Source: an uncultured Fidelibacterota bacterium (lineage in GTDB: Bacteria > Fidelibacterota > Marinisomatia > Marinisomatales > UBA1611). Taken from it: a DNA stretch of 64,000 nt. Shown piece after piece: positions 2,942 to 8,348 of the stretch (the first letter of the stretch is position 1; the number at the start of each line of letters is the position of its first letter). The notes below the pieces were generated by a model that saw only the letters and a list, made by a program, of their open reading frames with translations, was not told where the DNA came from and made no database searches. The position numbers and the translations under genes were made by a program. Where the stretch lies: contig CAJWLO010000012.1 of the NCBI GenBank assembly GCA_913043235.1, positions 1 through 64,000 of the forward strand, given 5' to 3'.

Positions 2942-2978
2942 CAAATCTACAAACAATATCCCTACAATGTGTGTGGGT
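2942..2978 (-). repeat. Array repeat module P2
   Basis: On the minus strand this is ACCCACACACATTGTAGGG, then ATATTGTTTG, then TAGATTTG, ending 3 nt before the GTG of the glycine-rich gene. The T-run is interrupted relative to P1 and P3, but the hairpin and the box are conserved. Confidence 0.75.
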
Positions 2979-2980
2979 AC

Positions 2981-3006
2981 AAACAAAAAACCCCACAAAT
3001 GTGGGG
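2981..3006 (-). terminator. Intrinsic terminator, module T2
   Basis: On the minus strand a perfect 7-bp hairpin CCCCACA-TT-TGTGGGG is followed by TTTTTTGTTT, 27 nt after the pterin dehydratase stop. It directly abuts P2, so T2+P2 form one composite boundary between units. Confidence 0.85.
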
Positions 3007-3033
3007 CTTGATAAATGATTAATTATTTCTTTA

Positions 3034-4885: not shown

Positions 4886-5137
4886 ATGACAAAACTATGT
4901 ATTAAGAAATTTGAAAAAGGCAATGAAAAGCCATTAACAACTGTTTCTATTCCCCTTGCTGTTTTAAAGATGGTAAAAAGTTTAATCCCAAAAAAAGCTA
5001 AAGAAGAACTGCAAAAAGAAGGGATTGATATCCAAGAAATCATTAAACTTTCTGATTCTCCTGATTTTACTGGAACTGTTTTAGAAGTTGAGAATCATGA
5101 AAAGAATGAAAAGGTAATAATCTCAATAGAAAAATAA
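4886..5137 (+). CDS. Conserved hypothetical protein, 83 aa
   Basis: The ATG is preceded by TGGAG 6 nt upstream, a good SD, unlike the leaderless units around it. The protein is basic in its N-terminal half ('IKKFEKGNEKPLTTVSIPL', 'KMVKSLIPKKAKEEL') and acidic near the end ('VLEVENHEKNEKVIISIEK'). The pattern is a beta-hairpin, two helices and a terminal beta-strand pair. It reminds me of small proteins found next to bacterial envelope-stress operons, but I cannot name the family. It is the only array gene on the plus strand besides the 77-aa one, and its stop is fused to module P4 (TAATTACCC...). Confidence 0.6.
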   Translation: MTKLCIKKFEKGNEKPLTTVSIPLAVLKMVKSLIPKKAKEELQKEGIDIQEIIKLSDSPDFTGTVLEVENHEKNEKVIISIEK

Positions 5138-5159
5138 TTACCCTACAATGTGTGCGAGG
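5138..5159 (-). repeat. Array repeat module P4 (lacks the promoter box)
   Basis: This copy keeps TTACCCTACAATGTGTG but lacks CAAATCTACAAAAA. In its place is the end of the plus-strand 83-aa gene. The hairpin half of the module therefore persists without the promoter half, as expected if the 83-aa gene replaced the unit that P4 once drove. Confidence 0.65.
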
Positions 5160-5163
5160 CTAT

Positions 5164-5189
5164 AAACAAAAAACCCCATGAATGTGGGG
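5164..5189 (-). terminator. Intrinsic terminator, module T4
   Basis: On the minus strand CCCCACATTCATGGGG is followed by TTTTTTGTTT, 8 nt after the TAA of the S9 peptidase. Apart from the flanks it is identical to T0 at 1319. Confidence 0.85.
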
Positions 5190-5197
5190 CTTGAGGA

Positions 5198-7375
5198 TTA
5201 TTGAGACCCTGGTTCCAGATACCGATCAAAGTGAGCTACGAGCTTGCCAAATAGGTAGCGAGCATAGTGGGTTGGGCGTGTCCAGCCATGGGTTGCCCCG
5301 GGAGCAAAGGCAAAATCAAAGTCCTTGCCTAAGCGCATCAACTCTTCCGCCAGCACCACCGTCGTCTTGAATGGCACTACGTCATCCTGCATTCCGTGGA
5401 TGATAAGCAGGTGATCCTCCAAGTTGCCTGCATATTGTGCAGCCCCCCGGGTGAACGCCTCCGGATGGCTCTGTGGGCGTCGCACTATAGCAACATCGTC
5501 TGTACCGAAGAAGTACGGGTCCACCGCTGCAGCCCCGGCGACTCCGGCCTTAAACAATCCCGGCTTCTTGAAGAGCGAGTAGATAGTGAGCGTGCCCCCG
5601 TAGCTACTACCCCAGATACCGACTCGTTCCGGATCTACGTAGGGAAGCGTCGACAGGTAATTGACAGCGCTCTCGAGGTCGTCGATGTCCCTGCCACCAA
5701 AGTCTATGAGGAACTCCTCTCGAAATTCCCGACCGTATCCAGTGCTTCCTCGTACATCGACCTGGATCACGATGTAGCCGCGTTCGACTAAAAGCTGGTG
5801 CAGGAGGCCGATCGTTCCGGCCCAACGGTTGCGCACCGTGTTCGAATATGCAGGGCCGAAAACGACAGGATACCGCTTTCCTGGCTTGAGGTCGGTCGGC
5901 TCGAGAATGCGTGCGTGCAGTGTGTAGTCATCGATTCGACTCGGGAAAGTCGCGTACCGTGCCTGGGCCCAAGATCGACGCATGAACTCAGGAATAGGTG
6001 ACGTGGTAACCCGGTTCTCGGGTAAGCCGTTCCGAGTGTCCACTATGTAGAGCTCTGGCGGGCTCAGATCACTGTTATGTAGAAGCGCTACCCTTGTCCC
6101 ATCGGGTGACGGGTAGGGTCGGTGTTGACCCGGCAGAGTGGTGACGCGGGTTGCAGTTCCTCCTTCATCTGGGATACGAAAAACCTGACGCTCGTACGGG
6201 CTCGGCTCATTGGACTGGAAAAAGATCATGCTTACAGGCGACACAACGAAGGGTTTGCTTGTGACATCGAAAGACTCATTCGTTAGCAGATTTGGCGTTC
6301 CATCTCCGGGAGTCAGAAGATAGAGTCCATAACGATCACCAAGGTCGCTGAGGAACACCACGCGCTCGCCGTCGGAGTGCCAGGCAGATGCGATGGATGT
6401 ATATACGCGTGTTTCTCGATGGTCGTGCCAGATTTCCTGCATGCTACCATCAACTGGGTCGACGGTATGCAACCAACGATCCACTGCCGTATCCGACTCT
6501 CGATCAAGGAGTAAGGTTCCATTGGGGGACCAGGAGAATGCTACAACACGGTTGGCCGTGGGGCCCGGCAGGTCCAACAGTGTCAAGTCGCCGCTTTCGA
6601 CTCCATAGAAACCGATTGTGCGGTGCTCGTTCGGGTCACCGGGGTATCCCCTGCGAAGGTTGTTTACAAGAGTCTCTTGACCCAGATAGTACGGGAACGG
6701 TACCGTTCGCAAGTTCCGGCGATCAACGTAATGCACCACAATGGTCCGGCTGTCAGGCGACCAGGCGTATGTAGGGCCACCCCAAACGTATGGACCAATC
6801 TCGACGTCGGGACGGTTGTATCGACCGAGTGGCACGCTGGAAATGGACGGTACACTGACCTCCGTCGCCCGGGTCAGAGTGCTTGTCCCCAAATGGAAGA
6901 GCCAGAGGTCACCATCTTGAAGAAAGGAGGCATATCGGCCGTCAGGTGAGACAGCCAGGTTCGACTTGTCTCCCCCGGTCTCCGTGAGGCGCTTCCCGCC
7001 ACCATTCGCGAATGACACGCGCCATACGTCGTCGGAGCGTAAATAGATAAGGTCTTCTGCATCGGGGGTCCATACGAACTGATCTACGCCTCTCGTGCCT
7101 TCAATCTCCGAGGTGAGCCGGCGCAGACCTGAGCCGTCGCCCTTTACAATCCATATCTCGCGGCGTGGCAATCCAGAGTCGTTCCAGAGGAATGCGAGTT
7201 GGCGGCTGTCGGCTGACCAAGAGGGAGAGGATGGCGCTGTACCAGTAATCGACGGCTGTGAGACGATACGATCGATAGTGAGCGCCGGTTCTTGACCGGC
7301 GCCGGTGGTCTTATCTACGGATTTTTGAGAACATCCAACAATTAGTAATAATGCAATTAGTAATAATCTTTTCAT
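5198..7375 (-). CDS. S9 family prolyl oligopeptidase/dipeptidyl peptidase lipoprotein, GC-rich
   Basis: The start is ATG 7375 with AAAGGAT upstream; the track start at 7381 is a TTG. The lipoprotein signal is 'MKRLLLIALLLIVGC', with Cys about residue 15. An 8-bladed DPP-N/TolB propeller follows, then an alpha/beta hydrolase domain with the nucleophile in 'GSSYGG' (about residue 590), Asp in 'HGMQDDVVP' and His in 'GATHGW'. All catalytic residues are present, so it should cleave peptides after proline or act as a dipeptidyl or acylaminoacyl peptidase outside the cytoplasm. Its base composition is unlike its neighbours (a hand count of 5581-5640 gives 34/60 G+C), but the signal-peptide stretch 7321-7380 has only 14/60. 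The switch occurs near 7320, which implies a foreign body fused to a host-type export signal. Confidence 0.93.
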   Translation of the reverse strand: MKRLLLIALLLIVGCSQKSVDKTTGAGQEPALTIDRIVSQPSITGTAPSSPSWSADSRQLAFLWNDSGLPRREIWIVKGDGSGLRRLTSEIEGTRGVDQFVWTPDAEDLIYLRSDDVWRVSFANGGGKRLTETGGDKSNLAVSPDGRYASFLQDGDLWLFHLGTSTLTRATEVSVPSISSVPLGRYNRPDVEIGPYVWGGPTYAWSPDSRTIVVHYVDRRNLRTVPFPYYLGQETLVNNLRRGYPGDPNEHRTIGFYGVESGDLTLLDLPGPTANRVVAFSWSPNGTLLLDRESDTAVDRWLHTVDPVDGSMQEIWHDHRETRVYTSIASAWHSDGERVVFLSDLGDRYGLYLLTPGDGTPNLLTNESFDVTSKPFVVSPVSMIFFQSNEPSPYERQVFRIPDEGGTATRVTTLPGQHRPYPSPDGTRVALLHNSDLSPPELYIVDTRNGLPENRVTTSPIPEFMRRSWAQARYATFPSRIDDYTLHARILEPTDLKPGKRYPVVFGPAYSNTVRNRWAGTIGLLHQLLVERGYIVIQVDVRGSTGYGREFREEFLIDFGGRDIDDLESAVNYLSTLPYVDPERVGIWGSSYGGTLTIYSLFKKPGLFKAGVAGAAAVDPYFFGTDDVAIVRRPQSHPEAFTRGAAQYAGNLEDHLLIIHGMQDDVVPFKTTVVLAEELMRLGKDFDFAFAPGATHGWTRPTHYARYLFGKLVAHFDRYLEPGSQ

Positions 7376-7385
7376 CTTCAATCCT

Positions 7386-7409
7386 TTATTTGAGCCAGAG
7401 GCGTTTCAT
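7386..7409 (-). CDS. Seven-residue leader ORF MKRLWLK
   Basis: An ATG at 7409 lies exactly 3 nt after the TAATTTTC box of module P5 and opens a 7-codon ORF that stops at 7386, 11 nt before the S9 peptidase ATG. The position copies the leaderless starts of P2 and P3. It may be a translated leader, or the remnant of a start codon whose own gene was replaced. There is no direct evidence of expression. Confidence 0.3.
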   Translation of the reverse strand: MKRLWLK

Positions 7410-7412
7410 ACA

Positions 7413-7446
7413 GAAAATTACAAAAAATTACCCAACAATGTGGGTG
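7413..7446 (-). repeat. Array repeat module P5 (diverged)
   Basis: The plus strand reads GAAAATTACAAAAAATTA then CCCAACAATGTGGGTG. Compared with P1 and P3 the hairpin is shortened by two bases and the box is TAATTTTC instead of TAGATTTG. It lies directly upstream of the S9 peptidase unit and is the outermost copy of the array. Confidence 0.65.
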
Positions 7447-7459
7447 TCTCTTTTATAAA

Positions 7460-7489
7460 GACATATTTAGACTAAAAAGTATGTGTATA
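7460..7489. repeat. Direct repeat DR-a with palindromic core TTTAGACTAAA
   Basis: GACATATTTAGACTAAAA followed by AGTATGTGTATA recurs at 7993-8019 as GACATTTAGACTAAA followed by TACGTGTATATA. The shared core TTTAGACTAAA is an 11-bp palindrome (TTTAG-A-CTAAA). The two copies flank the two-gene unit 7510-7965, each upstream (minus strand) of a transcription unit, so a shared operator or promoter is possible, as is a recombination site. Confidence 0.5.
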
Positions 7490-7509
7490 GTGTGTGTGAC
7501 CGGTCAGCT

Positions 7510-7689
7510 TTAAACTGATTTTATACTTTTCAATACATAATGTGTTGGGTTATCCCCATAAGTAAACTTATGAGGTTCATGTTCGTAGTCATAGTTAATC
7601 AAACGTATCTCTTCTTCTTTTACGTAAAACACGTTTTCCTTTATTTCTTCATCCGAGTTTTCGTATTTATATTCAATTTTGTATATCAT
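7510..7689 (-). CDS. Small acidic hypothetical protein, 59 aa
   Basis: This one is just below the track's length cut-off and was translated by hand. It begins 'MIYKIEYKYENSDEEIKEN' and ends 'HYVLKSIKSV'. An AAAGGAG Shine-Dalgarno lies upstream of ATG 7689. It follows the 85-aa gene after 18 nt in the same direction, so the two are probably co-transcribed. It is rich in Glu, Tyr and Lys, and no family is recognised. The plus-strand ORF 7540-7932 overlapping it is a shadow. Confidence 0.6.
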   Translation of the reverse strand: MIYKIEYKYENSDEEIKENVFYVKEEEIRLINYDYEHEPHKFTYGDNPTHYVLKSIKSV

Positions 7690-8198: not shown

Positions 8199-8348
8199 AT
8201 GGACTTGTTTAATAAAAAATGGTTAACTCTTTATGAGGCGGCTCAATACTTAAACAGATGCACCCGGCAAGTATTACGATACATTGAAAACGGAAATCTG
8301 AAAAGGCAATATAGAATTTCATATTTCGGCATACCTAAAAGATTGTAG
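8199..8348 (+). CDS. Truncated excisionase-type helix-turn-helix protein
   Basis: This 49-codon ORF was found by eye. It has GGAAGGA upstream and encodes 'WLTLYEAAQYLNRCTRQVLR' then 'YIENGNLKRQYRI'. This is the MerR/excisionase-like HTH_17 fold: WLT-x-EAA-x-YL, recognition helix, Y-I-x-x-G-x-L. Family members normally continue about 10-20 residues past the wing ('..DLDxFL'). Here a TAG follows 'YFGIPKRL', so the C-terminal edge appears to be missing. It lies at the right edge of the accessory region with no integrase next to it. It could be a small regulator or the relic of a recombination directionality factor. Confidence 0.55.
   Translation: MDLFNKKWLTLYEAAQYLNRCTRQVLRYIENGNLKRQYRISYFGIPKRL

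Follow-up and report, generated by a model that had tools for sequence, protein, structure and literature searches.

A GC-rich S9 peptidase gene that begins with a host-style leader and lipoprotein signal: a probable recombinational hybrid in a Marinimicrobia bacterium

Near the start of a 64,000-nucleotide stretch of DNA from an uncultured Marinimicrobia bacterium (the window), a GC-rich gene for a putative peptidase lies amid AT-rich DNA and itself begins with an AT-rich lipoprotein signal. This raises the question of whether the two parts of the gene have different origins. A preliminary description of the locus had proposed that a foreign peptidase body was fused in frame to a host-style export signal at about codon 19-21, near the residues KTTG. 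Here we provide evidence that the gene is probably a recombinational hybrid, in which a recently transferred GC-rich body has been joined in frame to a resident leader, start codon and lipoprotein signal. The features of the locus are the following:

5198-7375, minus strand: complete coding sequence for 725 aa, with the ATG at 7375-7373 and the stop at 5198
5198-7309, minus strand: GC-rich body, encoding a beta-propeller and an alpha/beta-hydrolase (GC 0.568, GC3 0.61)
5605, 5386 and 5290, minus strand: catalytic residues Ser591, Asp664 and His696, respectively, in the order S, D, H
7313-7375, minus strand: AT-rich host-style segment, codons 1-21, with the predicted lipoprotein signal MKRLLLIALLLIVG-C and lipobox Cys15 (GC 0.254, GC3 0.05)
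7304-7323, minus strand: putative junction, situated in the linker that follows the lipobox, of the host-style 5' end with the GC-rich body (point estimate 7310-7313)
7380-7459, minus strand: host leader module directly 5' of the start codon, repeated in the same genome and in another genus
7386-7409, minus strand: ATGAAACGCCTCTGGCTCAAATAA, an element of the leader that resembles a short ORF (MKRLWLK stop), with an exact 18-nt copy at C85:3227
5132-5200, minus strand: host intergenic module with a terminator-like hairpin, a T-run and a repeat next to them, starting a few bases past the stop

Judged from its sequence, the product of 5198-7375 is a putative lipoprotein peptidase of the S9 prolyl-oligopeptidase/DPP4-like type, with the attributes by which MEROPS places a protein in family S9. 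An in-frame TTG is present at 7381, upstream of the ATG. Pfam searches detected the domains Peptidase_S9 (PF00326; E 4e-41, 141 bits against a cutoff of 22.6) and DPPIV_N (E 1e-23). The AlphaFold model (pLDDT 81.6) shows an N-terminal beta-propeller over an alpha/beta-hydrolase, and Foldseek searches with this model returned DPP4 structures (E 9e-50), the top PDB match being the DPP4 2ecf (TM 0.80/0.83, 23% identity). The active-site residues are intact: S591, which lies in the motif GSSYGG, D664 and H696 are invariant across 17 homologues, the triad being read from the sequence; the pLDDT of the model is <50 at residues 664-667. The peptidase thus resembles bacterial DPP4 and S9 lipoprotein and secreted peptidases (PDB 2ecf, 5yp1 and 5olj) in its fold (TM 0.80-0.83), in combining a beta-propeller with a hydrolase, and in having the Ser-Asp-His residues. 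It differs from them in that it is only about 20-23% identical, and in that it has one of the two DPP4 glutamates, E192. The double-Glu motif of DPP4 was not found in the peptidase, where DVEI aligns with the DEEM of 2ecf, and of the two glutamates the clade of the peptidase has kept E192 alone. For this reason we call the protein DPP4-like rather than DPP4, and its specificity for dipeptides is not assured.

The position of the seam was determined in two ways. Firstly, the GC content is 56.8% in the region 5198-7309, 30% in the region 7310-7459, and 29-32% in the flanks. The maximum likelihood change point at the 5' end is located at 7310 (7304-7323 within 2 log units), and that at the 3' end at 5173 (5138-5186), just beyond the stop codon. 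Secondly, codon usage is best divided behind codon 21: in codons 1-21 the usage of the host is preferred by +16.6 nats, and in the codons beyond the usage of the body is strongly preferred. It should be noted that this split is based on synonymous choice and is therefore independent of the amino acids of the signal. From 0.05 in codons 2-21, GC3 rises to 0.58 in codons 22-45 and to 0.61 in the body; 19 of the 20 synonymous third positions in codons 2-21 are A or T, and none of 20000 simulations in which the signal was recoded with the codon usage of the body was as AT-rich as the observed sequence. Hence, the GC change-point and the codon-usage analyses both place the boundary at codon 21-22, and the fusion point that had been proposed near KTTG was accurate. 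The G+C counts behind that proposal were also exact (14 of 60 bases in 7321-7380, 35 of 60 in 7261-7320 and 34 of 60 in 5581-5640). Because composition has yet to blur the seam, the position of the join, behind the lipobox, is known to about 20 bases. No second seam was found inside the body, whose identity to orthologues is even along its length.

How unusual this gene is can be judged against the 1.65 Mb that we fetched of the same genome (a bin of 2.92 Mb, 83% complete), which contain 1112 ORFs with a mean GC content of 0.389 (sd 0.036) and a mean GC3 of 0.324. At a GC content of 0.559, the peptidase gene lies 4.7 sd above these host ORFs, and the only other long ORF among them with a GC content above 0.50, which is also the only one to exceed the peptidase gene, is located on a probably chimeric contig end. 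Among 976 ORFs, this gene has the greatest GC step from start to body, if by a small margin (0.313, the next being 0.288), and equally sharp local GC steps occur at a few other places in the genome. The signal itself, on the other hand, is ordinary. Residues 1-15 form a predicted lipoprotein signal of the SPase II substrate type with Cys15: pattern matching and inspection identified a basic n-region, a hydrophobic core and a lipobox with Cys in MKRLLLIALLLIVGC. The first 15 codons contain 22% GC, which is not exceptional given that the lipoprotein signals of this genome average 26-28% GC. Since AT-richness is the rule for signals here, it is the body that is anomalous rather than the signal, and the contrast between the two is large because the body looks foreign. 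The same observation is a counterpoint to the hybrid, in that AT-rich signals and a drop in GC at signals occur in this genome anyway.

Evidence for the host nature of the 5' end also comes from the DNA upstream of the gene. The leader at 7380-7459 is host DNA, a repeat that precedes unrelated exported hydrolases: a copy with 91% identity over 80 bp precedes an amidohydrolase gene in another genus (G016:C56), and in the same genome there are copies at contig C85 (84%) and at contig C106 (94% over 47 bp), the latter preceding an S15-type hydrolase gene. Therefore, the host part of the locus is not limited to the signal, but spans the leader, the ribosome-binding region and the signal. The 3' side is likewise bounded by host DNA. 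Copies of the module at 5132-5200 that are 86-98% identical occur in other genera (G019, G010 and G009), and the module has a fold z of -3.1. As the GC-rich DNA reaches the stop codon and the host module follows a few bases on, the foreign part consists of the body of one gene only. No genome was found to align over both flanks and so to show an empty site in relatives.

The leader contains an element that we considered in another light. The ORF of the L038 orthologue opens with ATGAAACACCTCTGGCTT, which raised the idea that ATGAAACGCCTCTGGCTC (7392-7409) is a relic of the foreign gene's own start. This reading was rejected because exact and near copies sit in the host leader repeat elsewhere. 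As an observation in its own right, ATGAAACGCCTCTGGCTCAAATAR (MKRLWLK stop) is a mini-ORF-like element that is found between genes at 7386-7409 on the minus strand of the window, at C85:3227, and in G016:C56 near positions 142 and 3258.

If the leader is resident, where did the signal come from? A DNA search of the whole genome (assembly 83% complete) for a parent of the signal detected nothing beyond 30 bp around a start codon, and this is a second counterpoint to the hybrid. When about 58 lipoprotein-type signals of Marinimicrobia were compared with it, that of an orthologue of the peptidase in genome G142 matched best at both the DNA and the protein level (DNA score 63, the next being 53; amino-acid score 48, the next being 46). 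The two signals align without gaps and lie at an equal distance from the motif LTIDR, and the peptidase and the G142 orthologue are both lipoproteins of the same subfamily. The signal could thus be the peptidase gene's own. In that case, a resident, ameliorated Marinimicrobial copy of the same gene, like that of G142, would have had its body replaced by a GC-rich copy while keeping its leader and signal. This is a variant of the explanation that we prefer, yielding a hybrid of two alleles of one gene and not of unrelated genes, and we regard it as possible, if tentative. The margin over unrelated signals is narrow, the N-terminus of the other Marinimicrobial orthologue, L038, is different and shorter, and no copy of the gene was found in the 32 genomes of the same family that were searched. 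Because the best match is an orthologue, the signal is just as likely to stem from a resident copy of this gene as from an unrelated lipoprotein, and because the margin is small, we retain both sources. The host-like composition of the export signal that had been proposed earlier was confirmed, and the leader is host DNA. The derivation of the signal from an unrelated host lipoprotein gained no support, given the missing parent gene and the match to G142, so that the hybrid may join two versions of the same gene.

The relatives of the body point away from the host family. No close homologue was found in the 32 same-family genomes, and sixty relatives lack a close match (full-length identities of 22-31%, with only short stretches reaching 40%). 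Among 245 genomes of the phylum, just two others carry close orthologues, both from one genus of another family; these are full-length, 76% and 70% identical, and have GC contents of 44% and 42%. The next kin (61-66% identity) belong to a class of bacteria with genomes of 7-10 Mb and 66-72% GC, and more distant kin are found in Gammaproteobacteria and Gemmatimonadota. In a phylogenetic tree, the peptidase is the sister of the two Marinimicrobial copies (support 100/100), on a short branch. Thus, in its composition and in its phylogeny the body is foreign to the host family, although two other Marinimicrobia carry orthologues of it. The idea of a foreign body stands with respect to its GC content and its absence from the host family, and GC-rich bacteria are indeed next in the tree of the catalytic body, but the nearest kin are Marinimicrobial orthologues rather than members of a GC-rich phylum. 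The preliminary description had also named two findings that would speak against a fusion. No GC-rich relative with the same N-terminus was found; full-length orthologues do exist in other Marinimicrobia, but their composition differs, so that this objection applies only by half. The immediate donor of the body, with about 57% GC, was not found. Carriage by phages or viruses was rejected, since the best matches in phage records are only 22-30% identical and no viral contig gave a close match.

A further occurrence of the body is informative about its mobility. Contig L054 carries the last 71 codons of the gene at 95% identity, and its 11 differences in 213 nt are all synonymous. The DNA directly after the stop codon, however, is quite different from the downstream flank of the peptidase gene, and another stretch of L054 is only 80% identical to this genome. 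It follows that the body moves apart from its flanks. Together with the kin and the tree, this indicates that the body is a recent arrival in the host and that it has been linked to different downstream contexts. Contig L054 (PBRL01000076.1) is labelled Chloroflexi NP954; it contains Marinimicrobia-type T9SS genes and host-type intergenic modules, and is probably mis-binned.

The same data bear on the question of whether any fusion has occurred. The whole gene might have been transferred with its own signal, and its first ~21 codons might have become AT-rich later through selection on translation initiation or export together with the mutation bias of the host. It fits this explanation that signal regions are generally AT-rich in this genome, and that the GC-rich relatives are lipoproteins too, with a lipobox in almost the same place. 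However, the gene starts of these relatives are GC-rich (0.6-0.75 GC), and the amelioration of the body has barely begun. We consider whole-gene transfer rather unlikely, because the synonymous sites of the body have hardly moved while 19 of the 20 third positions of the signal are A or T, against a GC3 of 0.58 in the very next codons (22-45), and because the host repeat reaches right up to the start codon.

Alternatively, the seam might be an artefact, a GC-rich contig having been mis-joined into a Marinimicrobia contig. The contamination of the bin is 6.3%, and the end of contig C30 resembles such a mis-join. Nevertheless, an assembly chimera is very improbable here, as it would need two joins, one in frame behind the lipobox and one at the stop codon, and as the independent assembly L054 has the same body (its 3' end) beside Marinimicrobia-type genes. 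In the C30 case (L096, G000:C30, positions 1-2140), about 2.1 kb of 70% GC at the end of the contig pass abruptly into AT-rich DNA that carries a glycine-rich gene, and this is a probable mis-assembly in this bin.

Returning to the recombinational hybrid, the following course of events can be envisaged. The GC-rich S9/DPP4-like body would have been acquired recently by horizontal transfer. Simultaneously with the transfer or after it, perhaps in a single event, recombination within the unstructured linker that directly follows the lipobox Cys (codon 21-22) would have placed the body in frame with the resident leader and signal, and a second join near the stop codon would have let the host intergenic sequence resume. 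With the joined 5' end, the body would obtain a promoter region from the host, a translation start of host type, and a signal fit for the secretion and lipoprotein machinery of the host. If expressed, exported, lipidated and active, the resulting peptidase would be attached to the cell envelope, where it would cleave peptides outside the cytoplasm. Such a gene would be a fresh, still readable case of how an imported exported enzyme is made usable by a bacterium, and suggests that a borrowed local leader and signal may carry exported foreign proteins past the barrier that they face.

The hybrid would be a new example of a kind that is already known. According to the passages of PMC5155454 and PMC4426131 that cite Toleman et al. 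2012, the blaNDM-1 chimera consists of the 5' end of aphA6 and, in frame with it, the body of another gene; the donor of the 5' end has thus been identified, and the shared coding sequence amounts to no more than about its first 20 bp. As far as these passages describe it, the blaNDM-1 case resembles the present one in that an existing bacterial body is combined with the 5' end and upstream DNA of a resident gene, gaining a start and an expression context. In contrast, the fused part of the peptidase gene is a complete lipoprotein signal, for which the search of the genome found no parent gene. The HGT-chimeras of arthropods (PMC13389597) are likewise single ORFs with a resident and a horizontally acquired part, and were detected by the phylogeny of both parts; the present host is a bacterium and not an animal, and the resident part of the peptidase is too short for a tree.

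The intergenic modules that Marinimicrobia share are possible recombination sites. In the window, modules that combine a terminator-like hairpin with a promoter-like part lie between successive genes at 1291-1350, 2951-3011, 5132-5200 and 7380-7459, and share about 83-98% identity across genera of the family. ACCCNACAATGTG has four copies in the 2.9 Mb genome, all within the first 7.5 kb of this contig. One might speculate that leader and terminator modules like those bounding the peptidase gene, which recur at 85-98% identity in different genera of the family ahead of unrelated exported enzymes, act as recombination platforms, foreign bodies being inserted between a prefabricated terminator and a prefabricated leader, the latter with or without a signal. 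If true, imported hydrolases would be expressed and exported at once, but we regard this as a distinctly unlikely generalization.

Features reminiscent of integrons were also noted. An attC-like inverted pair, ACCCAACA...TGTTGGGT, 121 bp apart at 7430-7551, encloses a second pair, AAAAGTAT/ATACTTTT, and folds no better than shuffled sequences (z -1.1). No IntI above the cut-off was detected in this genome (83% complete bin), and among the papers searched none was found that ties Marinimicrobia to integrons or to such a fusion. Full integron integrases above the TIGR02249 cut-off are present in other Marinimicrobia, namely in G002:C156, G033:C76 and C105, G034 (several) and G039:C7.

Finally, the first 8 kb of the contig resemble a variable region. 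By inspection only, a 49-aa ORF at 8199-8348 on the plus strand (MDLFNKKWLTLYEAAQYLNRCTRQVLRYIENG...) has a likeness to an excisionase-type helix-turn-helix protein. Also by inspection, the ORF at 3-968 on the minus strand, which runs off the start of the contig, is an HsdM-like methylase of a Type I restriction-modification system, with a DNA match of 73% at G034:C46.
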